Assembly (NCBI RefSeq): GCF_900102375.1
Contig: NZ_FNBO01000004.1
Coordinates: 62,001 to 126,000, forward strand
Source: Halorubrum xinjiangense
Lineage (GTDB): Archaea; Halobacteriota; Halobacteria; Halobacteriales; Haloferacaceae
Direction: 5' to 3'
DNA length: 64,000 nucleotides
In this document: in pieces, positions 17,464 to 26,178 of the stretch
Position numbering within the stretch: position 1 is the stretch's first letter
Layout: each line of letters begins with the position of its first letter
Notes under the pieces: generated by a model
The model's database searches: none
What the model saw: the letters and a program-made list of their open reading frames with translations, nothing else
Told to the model about the DNA's origin: nothing
Position numbers and translations under genes: made by a program

Positions 17464-19428
17464 TCAGTCGTCCGAATCGCTCGTTGCGCCGAGGTCGATC
17501 GGGCGCTCGTCCAGCGGCGTCGCGTCGTCGACGACGCCCGCGAGCCCGAGCCGATCGACCGTTTCGCCCGTCGGGAGCCCGCTTTCGCCCCAACCCCGCG
17601 CCGCGTAGTAGCGGTCCAGCAGGCGGTCGAACGCGTCGACGTCGACGCCCGGCGTTCCGTCGGCCGCCGACGTGCGGAGCGGCTCGGGGAGCGCGTCGTC
17701 CGCGCGGTCGAACCCCTCGCGGGCGTTGAACAGCCGCGTCAGCGTCCAGATCCGCTCGCCAGTCGTCGCGAGCCCGGCGGTCGAGTCGCCCGGCGCGATG
17801 GAGTCGACGTCGCTTTCCTCCCCCGCGTCGCCGTCGCGGTCGACGCCGGTGACCGCCGGGTGGTCGATCGCCGCGAGCCACTCCGCGCCGAGGTCGGTCC
17901 AGACCGCCTCGCCGACGAAGTCGTCGACGACGAGGCTCCATAGCACGGACCGCCCGTTCTGCTCGCCGACCACGTCGCGGACCCGGTCGGCCGGGGACCG
18001 GTCCGGGCGGGCGAGGGGCTCCGTGTCCTGCGGGCGCGCGCGGCGGTGACATGCGCCGCGGTCGCTCGTCGCGTACGCGAGCGCGACGCCGACCGCCGCG
18101 CGCGGGTCGAAGCCGGGCAGCGCCATCGACTTCACCGTCGGCACGAGTTCCGCGCCGCCGAACCGGGCGACCGCGGCGTCGATCCCGTCCGCGAGAGCGT
18201 TCGGCAGGTCGGGGTCGACGTCGAGGCCTGGCGGCGCCTCGCGGGCCGCGATCGCTTTTAAAAGGCTCTCGGCGCCGTCCGCGTCGCCGAACGAGACCGG
18301 GCAGTCAACGACCCCCGCCTCCCCGGCGCGGACCGCCCACGCGACGGCGTTGCCCGCGCCGATCACGTCGAGGCCGAGTCGGTCGCAGACTCCACAGAGA
18401 TCGACGACGCGGTCGAAGTCGTCGATCCCGAGGCCCGCGCCGAGCGTGATCGGCGCCGCGCCGCGCGGGACGACCTCGCCGTCGGGCGTGTCGATCCGGA
18501 AGCCGCCGGGGGCCGCGAGGTCGGCGCCCTCCGCGTCGTCGCCTGCGGGCCCGTCGTCGCCTACGGGCCCGTCCTCGCCTGCGGGCCCGTCGTCGCCTCC
18601 CTCGCGCCCCGCCGCGCGTTCCAGCGCGGCCTCGACCCCGATGTCGTCGGCGCCGTCGAAGCCGGTCTCCGTCCACCCCTCCGCGGCGAGTATCCCGACC
18701 TCGTTCGCGTAGTCGATCGTCTCGACGGTCTCGCCGGCCGCCTGCCACTCGCCGGTCGGCTCGTCGCCGTAGGCCGCGGCGTCGCGCTCGCGGAGCGCGG
18801 CGAGGTCGTCCGGGACCGTCGGCGGGGGATCCCGGGCGACGACCGCCTTGAGGCGCTTCGCGCCCATCACGGCGCCGGCGCCGCCCCGGCCCGCGTGGTG
18901 GGCGCCGCCGTCGCTCGCGATCGTCGCGTACGCCGCCTCGCGCTCGCCCGCCGGGCCGACGCAGGCGACCCCGGCGTCCGGGAACCGCTCGGCGGTCTCG
19001 GCGGCGTCGGCGCCCCACGCGCCGCTCGGTTCGATCCGGGCGCGACCGTCCTCCACCTCGATCCGGACCGGCCGGTCGGCGGCGCCGGTCACGAGCAGGC
19101 CGAGGCAGTCGCCGAGCGACCCCGCGAGCCGGTCGGCGAACGCGCCGCCGGCGTACGAGTCGAGGAAGCCGCCGGTGAGCGGTGACTTCGTCACCGCGAC
19201 GTAGCGCGTTTCGCCCGGGAGGTAGCCCGCGAGGGGTCCGACGAGGAACGCGAGGAGGTTCGCGGGGGCCGTCGGGTCCGTCCCCGGCGACAGCTCCTCG
19301 TAGAGGTAGCGCGCACCCAGTCCCTTCCCGCCGACGTAGTCGCGGCGCCAGTCCCGCGGGACGCGCTCGCGGGCGGTCTCGCCCGTCGAGAGGTCGACGC
19401 GGAGGATTCGAGTGCGACTCGGACGCAT
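17464..19428 (-). CDS. Aldehyde ferredoxin oxidoreductase family protein lacking cluster cysteines
   Basis: Related to tungsten-pterin aldehyde:ferredoxin oxidoreductases. The N-terminal pterin-binding domain is clear (YVGGKGLGARYLYEEL, TKSPLTGGFLDSYAGG, HHAGRGGAGAVMGAKRLKA), and so are DRLGLDVIGAGNAVAWA and the AYATSDRGACH region. However, the CxxCxxxC motif that binds [4Fe-4S] just before the DRLGLD region is absent, and the segment there is a Gly/Asp repeat. The later cluster cysteine is also replaced (SLVVDDF where CxF is usual). It therefore probably does not bind the standard cluster. Length of 654 residues is near normal. Substrate unknown. It is divergent from yqeC. Confidence 0.8.
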   Translation of the reverse strand: MRPSRTRILRVDLSTGETARERVPRDWRRDYVGGKGLGARYLYEELSPGTDPTAPANLLAFLVGPLAGYLPGETRYVAVTKSPLTGGFLDSYAGGAFADRLAGSLGDCLGLLVTGAADRPVRIEVEDGRARIEPSGAWGADAAETAERFPDAGVACVGPAGEREAAYATIASDGGAHHAGRGGAGAVMGAKRLKAVVARDPPPTVPDDLAALRERDAAAYGDEPTGEWQAAGETVETIDYANEVGILAAEGWTETGFDGADDIGVEAALERAAGREGGDDGPAGEDGPVGDDGPAGDDAEGADLAAPGGFRIDTPDGEVVPRGAAPITLGAGLGIDDFDRVVDLCGVCDRLGLDVIGAGNAVAWAVRAGEAGVVDCPVSFGDADGAESLLKAIAAREAPPGLDVDPDLPNALADGIDAAVARFGGAELVPTVKSMALPGFDPRAAVGVALAYATSDRGACHRRARPQDTEPLARPDRSPADRVRDVVGEQNGRSVLWSLVVDDFVGEAVWTDLGAEWLAAIDHPAVTGVDRDGDAGEESDVDSIAPGDSTAGLATTGERIWTLTRLFNAREGFDRADDALPEPLRTSAADGTPGVDVDAFDRLLDRYYAARGWGESGLPTGETVDRLGLAGVVDDATPLDERPIDLGATSDSDD

Positions 19429-19545
19429 TCAGACGCGATGCGCGGCGGAGACGTATCAATCTGTCCGGCACCGTGATCGGGTCGCGCGGTCGTCCGTCTG
19501 GGCGCGACCGCCAGAGTGAGGGCCGACGCGGTCGTACGGGGGCGT

Positions 19546-20277
19546 ATGGACCTGACGACCGCGCTCGACGCCCGCGACGCGACCGTCTGCGTCGTCGGCG
19601 CGGGCGGCAAGAAGTCGACGCTGTTCGCGCTCGCCGACCGGCTCGACCGGGCAGTCGTGACCGCGAGCGTGCGAATACCGATCTTCGACGATCGGGTCGC
19701 CGCGGTGCGCGTGACCGAGGACCCGGTGGCCGCGATCGAGGAGGCCGGAGACGGCGACTGGCCGCTCGGGCTGGTCCCGGAGCGCGAGCGGTCAGACCGG
19801 TACCTCGGGTACGATACGGAGACGGTCGCCGAGATCGCCGACGCCGCGCCCGGCGCGACGCTCGTGAAGGCGGACGGGGCGCGCCTCCGCGAGTTCAAGG
19901 CGCCCGGCGACCACGAGCCGCAGATCCCGGCGAACGCGGACGTCGTCGTCCCGATCGCGAGCGCGCACGTCGTTGGCGAGCCCCTCACCGAGGAGCTCGT
20001 CCACCGGCCGGCTGAGGTCGCCGCGATCACCGGCCGCGAGATCGGCGACGAGATCCGCCCCGCCGACGTCGCGACAGTCCTCGCGAGCCCCGCGGGCGGG
20101 CTGAAGGGCGTCCCGAGCGGCGCGACCGCGATTCCGGTCGTGAACAAGGTCGACGACGAGGCGGACGCCGCCGCGGCCCGAGCGGTCGCCGGGGAGATCC
20201 TCTTCCGCGCGAACGTGCCGCGCGTCCTCCTCACGCGCCTGATCGCGGACGACCCGGTCGTCGAAGTCGTGGAGTAG
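19546..20277 (+). CDS. yqeC: YqeC-like molybdenum-enzyme accessory protein
   Basis: Resembles the putative selenium-dependent hydroxylase accessory protein YqeC, thought to help mature molybdenum hydroxylases. The 243-residue protein has a P-loop-like GAGGKKSTLFALADRL near residue 18, VKADGARLREFKAPGDHEPQIP near 108, and VVNKVDDE near 200, all family motifs. ATG 19546 was chosen over an in-frame GTG at 19516. It is divergent from the AOR-family gene across 117 bp, so the two may share control and a cofactor pathway; that link is inference. Confidence 0.8.
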   Translation: MDLTTALDARDATVCVVGAGGKKSTLFALADRLDRAVVTASVRIPIFDDRVAAVRVTEDPVAAIEEAGDGDWPLGLVPERERSDRYLGYDTETVAEIADAAPGATLVKADGARLREFKAPGDHEPQIPANADVVVPIASAHVVGEPLTEELVHRPAEVAAITGREIGDEIRPADVATVLASPAGGLKGVPSGATAIPVVNKVDDEADAAAARAVAGEILFRANVPRVLLTRLIADDPVVEVVE

Positions 20278-20282
20278 ATCCG

Positions 20283-20882
20283 CTACGAGCTTCCCTCCGG
20301 GAGCTCCTCGAACGACCGCCAGAGCGCCCGGTACAGCGTCCACGCGTCGACGCCGGTCCGGTCCATCACGGCCCGGCAGGCGTCGTCGAACCGCCGGTAG
20401 TCGGCACTCGAAGGCGGGTCCGGATACGGGTCGTCGAGCTCGCCAACCGCGGCCAGAACCGCCCAGGTCCGGCGGTCGACCGCGACGAACCGCGACGGGG
20501 CGAGGAACTGGAGAAACCCGGACGCGACCGCGACGTCGACCCCGTCGAGCGCGGTGAGCGCGTCGAAGGCGGCGTCAGCGTCCGGTGAATCGTCGTTTTT
20601 TACGCCCACCGCGTCGACGGCGGCGTCGATGGCGTCGATCACGTCGTCGAACTCGTTGTCGCGGAAGGCGTCCTCCCGCTCGCGCCGTTCGCGGTCCGGG
20701 TACTCGCCGAGGTACCGCCGGAAGTACCACCGGACGATCCACTGGGCGTCCCGGCGTCCGTACTCCTCGCCGGCGAAGGTCTTCGGGACCGTCTCGACGT
20801 GCTGGCGCTCCACGTCGTACAGCGGTTCCGCCTCCGCGTACGCCCGGGCGCGGTCCCGGACGGTCGACTCGCTCAGGTCCAT
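20283..20882 (-). CDS. Uncharacterised protein with DNA-glycosylase-like helical core
   Basis: A 199-residue soluble protein. The segment LTALDGVDVAVASGFLQFLAPSRFVAVDRRTW (residues about 115-147) looks like the helix-hairpin-helix region and following helix seen in HhH glycosylase-like proteins, including an Asp at the position where a catalytic residue would be. I do not know a named family for it and similarity is by eye only. The start ATG 20882 gives MDLSESTVRDRARAYAEAE. It converges with yqeC, whose stop is six bases away. Confidence 0.65.
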   Translation of the reverse strand: MDLSESTVRDRARAYAEAEPLYDVERQHVETVPKTFAGEEYGRRDAQWIVRWYFRRYLGEYPDRERREREDAFRDNEFDDVIDAIDAAVDAVGVKNDDSPDADAAFDALTALDGVDVAVASGFLQFLAPSRFVAVDRRTWAVLAAVGELDDPYPDPPSSADYRRFDDACRAVMDRTGVDAWTLYRALWRSFEELPEGSS

Positions 20883-20972
20883 CACCTCGCGGTACGGCGG
20901 TGGGACGGATGAACGTTCGTGCCGATCGTCCCGATCGATCGTTTCATACTGGCGTGGACACTGATAACACGT

Positions 20973-22115
20973 ATGACAGACGACCGGATCCCGGTCACCG
21001 TCCTCAGCGGCTACCTCGGCGCCGGGAAGACGACGATGGTGAACCACCTGCTCGCGAACCCGGGCGACAGGCGGATCGCGGTCATCTTGAACGACATGGG
21101 CGAGGTGAACGTCGACGCCGAACTCGTCGCCCGCGAGAACGACGAGGAGGGCGTCATCGACCTCTCGAACGGCTGTATCTGCTGCCGACTCCAGGACGAC
21201 CTCCTCTCGGAGGCGGCGACGCTCGCGGCGTCACGGGAGTTCGACTACCTCCTCGTCGAGTCGTCGGGCATCTCCGAGCCGATCCCGATCGCGCGGGCGT
21301 TCACCGAGGGGACCGAGGACAGCGAGGTCGACCCGACCGAGCGCTTCCGGCTCGACACGATGGTGACCGTCCTCGACACCTACGGGTTCTGGAAGGAGTT
21401 CGACGCGGGCGAGGACCTCCCCGGCGACGGCGAGCCGGCGGCCGACCGGCCCCTCGCGGACGTGCTCGTCGAGGGGATCGAGTTCTGCGACGTGCTCGTG
21501 TTGAACAAGACGGACATGGTCCCCGACGACGTGCTCGACGAGATCGAGTCGGTCGCCGACCGGCTGGGGCCGCGCGCGAAGCGCATTCGAACGAGCTACT
21601 CCGAGGTCGACCCGGGCGACGTGCTCGACACCGGGCGGTTCGACTTCGAGACGGCAAAGCGGTCGCCGGGGTGGAAACGCGCGATAGCTGAGAGCGAGGG
21701 CGACGAGGGAGGCGAGGGCGCAGAGGAACGAGACGGCCACGCGCACGACCACGCCGAGGGGGCGGCCGCGGCCCACGGGGTCGACTCGTTCGTCTACCGC
21801 TCGGCCGACGCCCTCGACCCGGAGCGGTTCGCGGCGTGGCTCGACGACTGGGACGGCGCCGTCGTGCGGGCGAAGGGCGTCGCGAACGTCGCCGGCACCG
21901 ACGAGGTGATCGGCGTGAGCCAGGCCGGCCCCTCGGTACAGGCGGGCCCCATCGGCGAGTGGGGACCGGACGACGACCGCCGGACGCGGCTCGTGTTCAT
22001 CGGCAGCGAGATGGACGAGGCGCGGATTCGCGGCGAGCTTGACGACCTGGCGACCGCCGGCGCCGACGGGGAGGCGGCGGCCGACGAGGCGGCCGCCGAG
22101 GCGTTCCCGCTGTGA
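20973..22115 (+). CDS. COG0523 (CobW-like) metal-chaperone GTPase
   Basis: A G3E-family GTPase that hands metal, usually zinc, to client proteins. Walker A GYLGAGKTT is at residues 13-21, the metal site CxCC is C68-I-C70-C71 in NGCICC, ESSGISEP follows the switch region, and the base-specificity motif is NKTD near 168. The loop near residue 250 carries a His-rich HAHDHAEG, a second likely metal site. The CobW C-terminal domain follows. The start is ATG 20973. A tiny CKYC protein gene lies just downstream on the other strand. Confidence 0.9.
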   Translation: MTDDRIPVTVLSGYLGAGKTTMVNHLLANPGDRRIAVILNDMGEVNVDAELVARENDEEGVIDLSNGCICCRLQDDLLSEAATLAASREFDYLLVESSGISEPIPIARAFTEGTEDSEVDPTERFRLDTMVTVLDTYGFWKEFDAGEDLPGDGEPAADRPLADVLVEGIEFCDVLVLNKTDMVPDDVLDEIESVADRLGPRAKRIRTSYSEVDPGDVLDTGRFDFETAKRSPGWKRAIAESEGDEGGEGAEERDGHAHDHAEGAAAAHGVDSFVYRSADALDPERFAAWLDDWDGAVVRAKGVANVAGTDEVIGVSQAGPSVQAGPIGEWGPDDDRRTRLVFIGSEMDEARIRGELDDLATAGADGEAAADEAAAEAFPL

Positions 22116-23833: not shown

Positions 23834-24036
23834 AGGATCCGCGAGGAACATGTTAGCACATCATAGTAAATGTTTTTCCGTTATAGTTACGTTTAACAAA
23901 ACTGATACGCCGAATATTAACGATCTCCCGACTGGGACGACGAGGCCTGTCCGCCCGCTCGGCGGAACCACCGACACACTCATGGACTGCGACGATAGAT
24001 CGTGTCATATGTACGCACACGGGGGCGGTGAGACGG
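23834..24036. promoter_or_regulatory. Divergent promoter region fdhA / formate dehydrogenase
   Basis: An AT-rich interval in a GC-rich genome. On the minus strand TTTACTAT (23870-23863) is placed correctly for fdhA. On the plus strand TTTAACAAAA near 23891 and GAATATTAACG near 23914 are candidate TATA boxes for the formate dehydrogenase. The two genes could be regulated together from here. Confidence 0.5.
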
Positions 24037-26178
24037 ATGTCCAGTGAACCGGACGACGCGACGAAGACTATCTGTCCGTACTGCGGGGTCGGCTGCGGGA
24101 TCCGCGTGCTGGAGGGCGACGAGCCCGGCGAGATGCGCTTCATGCCGTGGGCCGACGCGCCGGTGAACGAGGGGAGCGTCTGCATCAAGGGCGGCGCGGC
24201 GACGCAGGTCGTCGACCACGAGGACCGACTGACGGAGCCGCTGATCAAGGAGGGCGGCGAGTTCCGCGAGGCGACGTGGGAAGAGGCGTTCGACCGCGTC
24301 GTCGACGAGATGGGGTCGATTCGAGAGGCACACGGTCCGGACGGGATGGGCTTCTTCGGCTCCTCGAAGACGTTCAACGAGGAGAACTACCTCATCCAGA
24401 AGCTCGCGCGGCGGTACGGCACGAATCAGGTCGACAACTGCACGCGGATGTGTCACGCCTCGACCGTCTGGGCGCTCCGGACCAGCCTCGGCATGGGCGC
24501 GATGACGAACAGCATGGCCGACTTAGAGGACTCCGCGGACGTGCTGTGGATCCAGGGCGCGAACCCGGGCGAGCAGCACCCGATCGCCAACAGCCAGTAC
24601 TTCCGGCAGGCCGTGTTGGAGGGCGCGACCGTCATCCAGGTCGATCCCCACGCGAACAAGACCACCCGGTCGTTTGATATCGGCGACACCGACCGGCACA
24701 TGCACCTCCAGCTGAAGCCCGGCACCGACATTCCTCTGTTAAATATCGTCCTCAAGACGATCCTGGAGCGCCACGAGGAAGAGCCGGAGGCGGGCTGGAT
24801 CGACGAGGAGTTCGTGGAGGAGCGCACCAAGGGAATCGACCACCTGAAGGAGACGCTCGCGGACTTCGACAAGGAGGCGGCCGCCGAGGAGTGCGGCGTC
24901 CCGCTGGAGGACATCGAGCTCGCCGCCGAGAAGTACGCGATGGCCAACGACGCGGCCATCTTCACCGGGATGGGGATGAGCCAGCATACCTGCGGCGTCG
25001 ACAACGTTCAAAACGAGATCAACCTCGCGCTGATCACGGGGAACCTCGGCCGCCCCGGAACGGGCGTCAACCCCCTGCGCGGGCAGAACAACGTCCAGGG
25101 CACCTGCGACGTGGGCGCGATGCCGAACGTCCTCCCGGGGTACCAGCTCGTCGACGACGACGAGGCCCGCGAGTCCGTCGAGGACGTGTGGGGCTTCGAG
25201 ATACCCTCCGAGCCCGGGCTGACGAACGTCGAGATATCCCACGCGATCGGCGACACCGTCCACGGCCTCTACGTCATGGGCGAGAACCCGATTATGAGCG
25301 AGCCGGACGGCAACGAGACCGAGCGCCGCTTCCGCGAGGAGCTCGACTTCATGGTGGTCCAGGACATCTTCATGACCGAGACCGCCGAGCTCGCGGACGT
25401 GGTCCTCCCCGCGACGACGTGGGCCGAGCGCGACGGCACCGTCACCAACACCGACCGCCGCGTCCAGCGCATGCGCGGCGTCCACAAGGTCCACGAGAAC
25501 ACCCGCCACGACCTCGACATCCTCTGTGAGGTGGGGACGCGGCTGTTCGACGGGGACGAGTTCGAGTTCGACGGCCCGGAGGACGTGTTCGAGGAGCTGC
25601 GCGAGGTGTGCCCGATCATGCACGGGATGACCTACGACGCGCTCGGCGAGACGGGGCTCCACTGGCCCTGCTACGAGGAGGGCGACGAGGGCGACCCGTT
25701 CCTCTACGAGGACGAGTTCGAGACCGAGGACGGCCTCGGCCGCATCGAGGGCGTCGTCCACCAGGAGCCGAAGGAGGTCCCGGACGAGGAGTACCCGCTC
25801 GTGTTGACCACCGCGCGGCTCGAAGAGCACTACAACACCGGGACGATGAGCCGACGCTCGCCGACGCTCTCGAAGCAGCACCCGGAGAACTTCGTCGACG
25901 TCCACCCGAACGACGCCGAGCGGTACGGCATCGAGGACGGCGACTACGTGAATCTCAAATCGCGCCGCGGCGAGATCACCGTCCGCGCGGACGTCACCGA
26001 GGACATCAAGGAGGGGGTCGTCTGGACCACGCCGCACTTCGCGGCCGCCTCCGCGAACCGCCTCACCAACGACGTGCTCGACGAGCGCGCCAAGATCCCC
26101 GAGTACAAGGCCGCCTCGGCGGAGATCGAGGTCGACATCGAGGCCGCGGGCGACGACGCAGCGTCCGCCGACGACTGA
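24037..26178 (+). CDS. Formate dehydrogenase alpha subunit (molybdopterin oxidoreductase)
   Basis: A bis-molybdopterin enzyme oxidising formate to CO2. The N-terminal [4Fe-4S] site is C13, C16, C20 (CPYCGVGC) with C48 in SVCIKGG. The metal ligand is Cys139 in NCTRMCHAS, so this is a cysteine not selenocysteine enzyme. MGMSQHTCGVDNV and GRPGTGVNPLRGQNNVQG are strong formate dehydrogenase signatures. The 713-residue length lacks the extra N-terminal ferredoxin domains of longer forms, and no electron-transfer subunit or FdhD is adjacent. I chose ATG 24037, with GGTGA upstream, over GTG 24028. Divergent from formaldehyde dehydrogenase. Confidence 0.92.
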   Translation: MSSEPDDATKTICPYCGVGCGIRVLEGDEPGEMRFMPWADAPVNEGSVCIKGGAATQVVDHEDRLTEPLIKEGGEFREATWEEAFDRVVDEMGSIREAHGPDGMGFFGSSKTFNEENYLIQKLARRYGTNQVDNCTRMCHASTVWALRTSLGMGAMTNSMADLEDSADVLWIQGANPGEQHPIANSQYFRQAVLEGATVIQVDPHANKTTRSFDIGDTDRHMHLQLKPGTDIPLLNIVLKTILERHEEEPEAGWIDEEFVEERTKGIDHLKETLADFDKEAAAEECGVPLEDIELAAEKYAMANDAAIFTGMGMSQHTCGVDNVQNEINLALITGNLGRPGTGVNPLRGQNNVQGTCDVGAMPNVLPGYQLVDDDEARESVEDVWGFEIPSEPGLTNVEISHAIGDTVHGLYVMGENPIMSEPDGNETERRFREELDFMVVQDIFMTETAELADVVLPATTWAERDGTVTNTDRRVQRMRGVHKVHENTRHDLDILCEVGTRLFDGDEFEFDGPEDVFEELREVCPIMHGMTYDALGETGLHWPCYEEGDEGDPFLYEDEFETEDGLGRIEGVVHQEPKEVPDEEYPLVLTTARLEEHYNTGTMSRRSPTLSKQHPENFVDVHPNDAERYGIEDGDYVNLKSRRGEITVRADVTEDIKEGVVWTTPHFAAASANRLTNDVLDERAKIPEYKAASAEIEVDIEAAGDDAASADD

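Follow-up and report, generated by a model that had tools for sequence, protein, structure and literature searches.

The protein AORnc of Halorubrum xinjiangense, a member of the aldehyde oxidoreductase (AOR) family, lacks the cluster cysteines of its relatives as well as their catalytic glutamate, and its gene is linked to one for a formate dehydrogenase (FDH). We suggest that AORnc is a former tungsten- or molybdenum-containing AOR that now serves as a bispterin carrier in the maturation of the cofactor of haloarchaeal FDHs, a reading to which we give close to, though not quite, an even chance of being correct. The profile of AORnc is carrier-like because the cofactor pocket is mostly kept, the cluster and the catalytic Glu are lost, and genes for MobA, a GTPase-like protein and FDH adjoin. 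AORnc is encoded in a contiguous stretch of 64,000 nucleotides that is referred to here as the window; the positions of the relevant features are compiled in Table 1. Neither an AOR clade without the cluster nor a module of this kind as a candidate replacement for FdhD was encountered in the open-licence literature searched.

Fold, lost cluster and mostly retained pocket of AORnc

The window protein matches AFOR families only when compared with Pfam: AFOR_N covers residues 7-200 (4.8e-59) and AFOR_C residues 320-629 (2e-65), with only positions 94-385 of the 385 positions of the latter profile being matched, and there is no FdhD-NarQ domain (PF02634). An AlphaFold2 model was calculated from an alignment of 75 of 81 sequences, six over-extended open reading frames (L057, L060, L065, L078, L099, L111) having been omitted; the orthologues in this alignment are 49-89% identical to the window protein. 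The model has a pLDDT of 89.9 and a pTM of 0.91. All of its top nine Foldseek matches are AOR-family structures (E values up to 1.4e-24), and the next match follows at 0.96. Structural superposition with VIA-align gave Z values from 45.9 to 36.0 across 557-582 residues for seven entries, with 1b25, 9mqx and 1aor matching at Z of about 45. Because of the AlphaFold2 model and these Foldseek and VIA-align matches, AORnc is predicted to have the AOR fold throughout, from end to end; its homology to AOR is certain.

Table 1. Features of the window that are relevant to AORnc and its proposed partners
Feature	Positions	Strand	Remarks
AORnc (AOR-fold protein without cluster cysteines)	17464..19428	-	654 aa, begins with ATG, free of internal stops
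WSLVVDDF, residues 497-504	17917..17940	-	Trp497 at PfAOR D489, Asp502 at PfAOR C494
PGGF...VPRGA element, residues 307-324	18457..18510	-	replaces CxxCxxxC...PEYE; Glu313 position = Ala324
Gly/Asp-rich loop, residues 282-302 (about)	18523..18585	-	pLDDT <50
Intergenic stretch between divergent AORnc and YqeC	19429..19545	.	YqeC start taken at ATG 19546
YqeC (TIGR03172), proposed partner	19546..20277	+	169 bits vs cut-off 73.05
u216, conserved protein beside the soluble FDH gene	20283..21047	-	no Pfam/NCBIfam match
CobW/ZigA-like GTPase, between YqeC and FDH	20919..22115	+	ZigA 311 bits, below cut-off
FDH alpha subunit, Cys type RMCHASTV, proposed client	24028..26178	+	716 aa; TIGR01591 727 bits vs cut-off 666

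The loss of the cluster ligands was assessed by comparing 117 AORnc sequences (106 of them distinct) with 37 cluster-bearing relatives. The former comprise 81 sequences (the window protein and the best 80 of 445 relatives) together with two further groups of 29 and 7, and thus fewer than one sequence for each of the 158 genomes known to contain AORnc; the latter consist of 23 haloarchaeal paralogues, 6 sister-clade proteins and 8 non-haloarchaeal relatives. The CxxCxxxC motif occurs in none of the 117 AORnc sequences (106 distinct) but is kept in every member of the three control groups (23/23, 6/6 and 8/8). At the position of the distal cluster cysteine of PfAOR (C494), Asp502 is found in 117/117 AORnc sequences and Cys in 37/37 controls. 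The replacement of Cys by Asp is not an alignment artefact, because the site aligns without gaps to the sister clade (WSLVxDDF in AORnc versus an FSMVxC(D/S)F-type segment); a phmmer pairing of Asp503 with PfAOR Asp489 was rejected, since the gapless sister clade places the Cys at Asp502. The position of the catalytic E313 of PfAOR is likewise altered, with Ala in 101, Gly in 12 and Ser in 4 of the 117 AORnc proteins; among the 37 controls, 36 have Glu here and one has Asp.

An earlier, sequence-only reading of the window had already noted that no cluster cysteines are present at the first site and that the later one is Asp in SLVVDDF; both statements were borne out. The alignment with AOR proteins and other haloarchaeal members that it had proposed extends the loss to the whole clade. 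Its further statement that a Gly/Asp-rich loop takes the place of the first site holds for the window protein and not family-wide, as this loop is an expansion of the Halorubrum lineage and varies in length among the orthologues. The family-wide substitute for the cluster segment is PGGFRVxT...VPRGA, in which the AlphaFold2 model predicts strands at residues 310-314 and 317-319.

There is no support in the sequences for a substitute set of cysteines, the finding by which the sequence-only reading would have been overturned. The window protein has cysteines at positions 108, 156, 345, 348, 376 and 460; among the 81 orthologues (the window and the best 80 of 445 relatives), only C348 and C460 are invariant (81/81) and C156 is nearly so (79/81), and positions 348 and 460 are Cys in the cluster-bearing relatives as well. 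The CGVC segment formed by residues 345-348 was rejected as a family feature, as it is found in 5 of these 81 sequences only.

Much of the cofactor pocket has been retained. The residues corresponding to R182, T243, D343, C447 and H448 of PfAOR are kept in 117/117 AORnc sequences and R76 in 113/117, while the position of Y427 is occupied by Tyr in 101 and by Phe in 16, the window protein having Phe. R462, W497 and D502 are both new and invariant in AORnc (n=117); Y92 and D503 are invariant too but occur in the sister clade as well, in all or most of its members, and R322 is present in 116/117 sequences. The second pterin motif of PfAOR, which we take to be DxxGLC with D489, has a Trp in place of this Asp in 117/117 AORnc proteins, and a Phe or Tyr in the cluster-bearing sister clade. 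The view that the pterin-binding half is kept therefore stands for R182, T243, D343 and H448 and fails for D489; the Trp calls for caution, since the sequence does not guarantee that two pterins are bound, a caution that is softened by the aromatic residue of the sister clade. The cofactor-site residues of PfAOR are given as T243, E313, Y427 and H448 in a study that also describes the WOR-type enzyme WorL with one [4Fe-4S] cluster (PMC13328260); this set is incomplete in AORnc, with E313 being absent in 117/117 proteins. AORnc does not qualify as a WOR enzyme, since these by definition possess the cluster.

In a 54-row IQ-TREE phylogeny from which the cluster columns had been removed, the AORnc clade received a support of 100/99. 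Its sister is a cluster-bearing haloarchaeal clade (100/100), and the joint clade is supported by 100/99; long branches (L003, L122, L113) and an odd letter make-up of the outgroup make the deeper order of this tree unsure. Because the loss of the cluster is common to a clade with a support of 100/99 on a tree without the cluster columns, it is more than chance, and these sequence data point to a single origin of AORnc in which the cluster was lost once. The groups are also separated by their profile scores, which are about 800 bits and up for AORnc, about 580-620 for the sister clade, and up to 406 for other AORs. The genome of the window strain encodes two further AOR paralogues, each with all four cysteines.

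The sister clade (L164-L169), found in the genus of the window and a few others, contains the nearest relatives of AORnc. It shares with AORnc a Tyr at the position of PfAOR N93 and an aromatic residue at that of D489, and 4 of its 6 members have the Asp at position 503. Unlike AORnc, it has kept all cysteines (CxxCxxxC and the distal Cys) as well as the PEYE segment, and it is present also in genomes without YqeC. No FDH, YqeC or MobA gene was found near the sister-clade genes at any of six loci (12.6-18.5 kb each).

Co-occurrence and gene company

AORnc was found in slightly more than half of the Halobacteria genomes (158 of 292), which represent 46 of the 77 genera. The number of genomes derives from 163 initial matches, from which one genome with an AORnc gene cut at the contig end (G251) and four genomes with the sister type only (G032, G162, G262, G244) were removed; a second, independent search also gave 158 genomes. 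In 124 genomes of the same phylum from outside the class, no AORnc was found, the best score being 406 bits versus at least 873 in the 15 AORnc genomes of the same draw. YqeC (TIGR03172) was detected in 201 and the FDH alpha subunit (TIGR01591; E values up to 1e-150) in 211 of the 292 Halobacteria genomes. All 158 AORnc genomes possess YqeC, compared with 43 of the 134 others, and 151 of the 158 possess a TIGR01591 FDH, compared with 60 of 134. Among the seven AORnc genomes without such an FDH, six encode an FDH-like enzyme of the Tat type at a distance of no more than 8 kb from AORnc (one member of this type scores 449 bits versus TIGR01591, below the cut-off of 666), and the seventh (L174) has no FDH-like enzyme near AORnc. 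Within the genus of the window, YqeC and FDH accompany AORnc in 31/31 genomes; in the four genomes of this genus without AORnc, YqeC is absent from all four and FDH from three.

Kinship was controlled for with a tree of EF-2 sequences from 80 genomes (79 selected by hand from 100 random draws, and G259, likewise added by hand), which provided 18 independent pairs differing in AORnc. YqeC differed in the same way as AORnc in 8.5 pairs on average, in the opposite way in 0, and was tied in 9.5 (median p 0.008); the corresponding figures for FDH are 7.8, 0.1 and 10.1 (median p 0.008). The association is not reciprocal throughout: 43 of the 201 YqeC genomes are devoid of AORnc, and several of these (L177, L178, L180-L182) contain YqeC-MobA-FDH clusters. 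Because of these 43 genomes, AORnc is not strictly or universally required for every FDH. A role as a general bis-MGD factor was rejected, as PF00384 enzymes occur in 26 of 40 genomes that lack AORnc, YqeC and a TIGR01591 FDH (40 of 68 genomes of that kind, taken mostly in list order). Both the co-occurrence with FDH and the linkage to it that are expected of an FDH-dedicated cofactor maturation factor are seen for AORnc.

The gene company was studied at 81 loci, those of the window and of the best 80 of 445 relatives by similarity; this set includes several loci per genus and is biased to close orthologues. Neighbouring families were grouped by label propagation and profile HMMs, single linkage having been dropped since it merged antisense open reading frames in this GC-rich DNA. 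Within 9 kb of AORnc, FDH is found at 54, YqeC at 40, a MobA-like gene at 21 and any of these at 72 of the 81 loci, with none of the three at 9; at the 64 full-length loci of the same set, the numbers are 46, 32, 19 and 59. The window itself contains no MobA gene. Three types of FDH are linked to AORnc in this set of 81. At 17 loci the enzyme is a soluble alpha subunit with a length of about 713 aa; at 26 it carries a Tat signal and is accompanied by an HdrA/FlpD-like Fe-S protein as well as a TorD-like chaperone; and at 13 it is a 1,100-aa NuoG-type form with a NuoF-like partner. The RxCH active-site motif is present in 54 of the 55 linked FDH open reading frames.

Other neighbours recur at the same 81 loci (best 80 of 445 relatives and the window). 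The HdrA/FlpD-like protein (715 aa; L107:15029-17173 and relatives), which carries multiple [4Fe-4S] clusters, adjoins the Tat-type FDH at 26 loci and is a possible electron partner of it. A DUF7124 protein, present at 29 loci, lies directly downstream of AORnc, often overlapping the end of its gene (e.g. L070:5321-6226), and is followed by a small membrane-like protein and a 128-aa protein. Relatives of the CobW/ZigA-like GTPase occur at 9 loci, and u216, whose membership in the module is uncertain, at 15.

No Halobacteria genome (0/292) contains an FdhD protein above the TIGR00129 cut-off, the best stray match scoring 16 bits, and a search with PF02634 of the 80 genomes used for the EF-2 tree gave no match either. 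The same searches were positive in 8 of 14 control genomes, three archaea among them, and negative in Haloferax volcanii. The absence of FdhD from haloarchaea is already in print: a 2023 review of molybdoenzyme maturation states that halobacteria often encode FDH but possess no fdhD, and raises the question of how, and by which proteins, the FDH cofactor is inserted and sulfurated in these organisms (PMC10609526). Sulfuration of FDH is described as requiring FdhD in E. coli and its homologue FdsC in R. capsulatus (PMC6239281). FDH has a true physiological role in haloarchaea, as formate-dependent growth and three FDHs have been reported for Halodesulfurarchaeum (PMC5437934).

An AlphaFold2 model of YqeC, built from 27 orthologues at AORnc loci (pLDDT 95.4), best matches GTPases of the SRP and MeaB types. 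For SRP-type GTPases, VIA Z values reach 12.9, with an identity of 13%. MeaB, a GTPase that helps in the loading of cobalamin, is matched with a Foldseek E value of 1.2e-3 and a VIA Z of 10.4. These structural matches are weak, both in score (best Foldseek E value 2e-4) and in sequence (about 10-18% identity); at the level of the fold only, YqeC is predicted to be a P-loop GTPase of the SIMIBI type. SelD was searched for in 60 hand-picked genomes of the 292, 50 with and 10 without AORnc. It scored above its cut-off in four of the 50 that contain AORnc, and did not do so in the genome of the window strain (G000). Each of the four SelD-positive AORnc genomes (G016, G053, G117, G180) contains two YqeC genes, one of which lies beside SelD; in G016, G053 and G117 the second is located within 3 kb of AORnc. 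This suggests a split of YqeC into a selenium type and an FDH type.

Proposed role of AORnc and alternative readings

In the envisioned route, the old cofactor pocket of AORnc would hold a nucleotide-free metal-bis-molybdopterin (W- or Mo-bis-MPT), and no turnover would be possible in a protein without the cluster or the catalytic Glu. YqeC, as a predicted SIMIBI-type GTPase, may then gate loading or release; two GMPs would be added by MobA to form bis-MGD, and the cofactor would finally be passed to FDH, in cells without FdhD. Bispterin binding, the carrier role, gating by the GTPase, the order of the steps and any part in sulfuration are what we infer. Of the three options left by the sequence-only reading (a cofactor-holding scaffold, altered electron transfer or a non-redox function), the scaffold fits best with the kept pocket, the lost cluster and Glu, and the company of YqeC, MobA and FDH. 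The more far-reaching proposal that FdhD has been replaced in haloarchaea by AORnc as the carrier, YqeC as a SIMIBI-type GTPase and MobA as the finisher is possible, and we put it forward as a tentative one.

That AORnc has remained a redox enzyme, whose W/Mo-bispterin centre delivers electrons via another route (for instance directly to a linked Fe-S protein or to an FDH subunit), and which acts on an aldehyde or a formyl compound of formate metabolism, strikes us as unlikely. The retention of H448, T243 and mostly Y427, and the presence of multi-cluster proteins near some loci, speak for such an enzyme; however, E313, conserved in aldehyde-oxidizing members, is Ala, Gly or Ser in 117/117 sequences, and no redox partner is conserved at all loci, the partner proteins differing between the linked FDH types. 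The lost redox relay and the mostly kept pocket would also agree with a non-redox or regulatory bispterin protein, for instance one that senses how much cofactor is supplied, or one with a hydratase-like activity needed where FDH works, and the invariant W497, D502, D503 and R462 suggest a new and specific function. We regard this as improbable, since the neighbouring genes are those of FDH and of cofactor assembly (YqeC, MobA), and a second pathway enzyme common to all loci is missing. The linkage to FDHs of three architectures might indicate that AORnc attaches to apo-FDH as a stable accessory subunit or as a chaperone for insertion, without ever carrying the cofactor. We consider this quite unlikely: the pocket residues are strongly conserved, only the catalytic domain is common to the FDH architectures, and the Tat-type loci already possess a TorD-like chaperone.

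YqeC has been filed under selenium cofactor biosynthesis, its family (TIGR03172) being tied to the selenium cofactor trait (PMC2276186), from which one might assign the whole module to the trait of selenium-dependent molybdenum hydroxylases. This assignment is largely refuted and has very little probability left, given that the few AORnc genomes with SelD (4/50 tested) have a second YqeC and that the linked FDHs are of the Cys and not the Sec type. The loss of catalytic residues could finally be taken as a sign of a decaying, functionless paralogue, but its conservation refutes this idea, to which we attach next to no weight: AORnc persists in 158/292 genomes and 46/77 genera, at 49-89% identity in the 75-sequence alignment and with new invariant residues.

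If this replacement of FdhD by AORnc, YqeC and MobA holds true, an AOR-fold protein would serve as a cofactor carrier and YqeC would have a selenium-free job. Up to now a marker of the selenium trait, YqeC is here linked to FDH; its deletion alone had no clear phenotype in C. difficile (PMC11448449). The module offers named, linked and co-occurring candidates for the question posed in PMC10609526, and these could be deleted in the genetically tractable Haloferax, to which the AORnc loci L073, L077 and L082 belong. It would also exemplify an enzyme family in which the Fe-S cluster was lost a single time and the protein retained for a different use.

Comparison with known systems

The closest parallel to the proposed function of AORnc is the AOR-family protein YdhV of E. 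coli, which is described as holding nucleotide-free bis-Mo-MPT; incubated in vitro with MobA and GTP, the bis-Mo-MPT from YdhV yielded functional bis-MGD that was active in TorA (PMC9103625). Unlike AORnc, YdhV is described with a (labile) [4Fe-4S] cluster, and no role as a cofactor donor in vivo is known for it. FdhD and FdsC resemble the job proposed for AORnc in their dedicated handling of the cofactor for FDHs of different architectures; FdhD differs in its unrelated sequence, and in that it binds bis-MGD and moves sulfur. The tungsten route of Methylorubrum extorquens, consisting of MoeA1, MobB, MobA and FdhD, is likewise an FDH-dedicated assembly of a metal-pterin cofactor with a GTP-binding helper and MobA. 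It departs from the AORnc module in using MoeA1 and MobB and in keeping FdhD, and no AOR-fold protein is reported for it (PMC13197769).

With the WOR/AOR enzymes (PfAOR, 1aor; FOR, 1b25; WOR83 of Haloferax volcanii, 9q1t), AORnc has in common the two AFOR domains, the fold (Z of about 45) and the pocket residues R76, R182, T243, D343 and H448. It is distinguished from them by the absence of ligands for a [4Fe-4S] cluster and of E313, by W497 in place of D489, and by its gene company, which is that of FDH maturation, whereas the WOR/AOR proteins are stand-alone enzymes.
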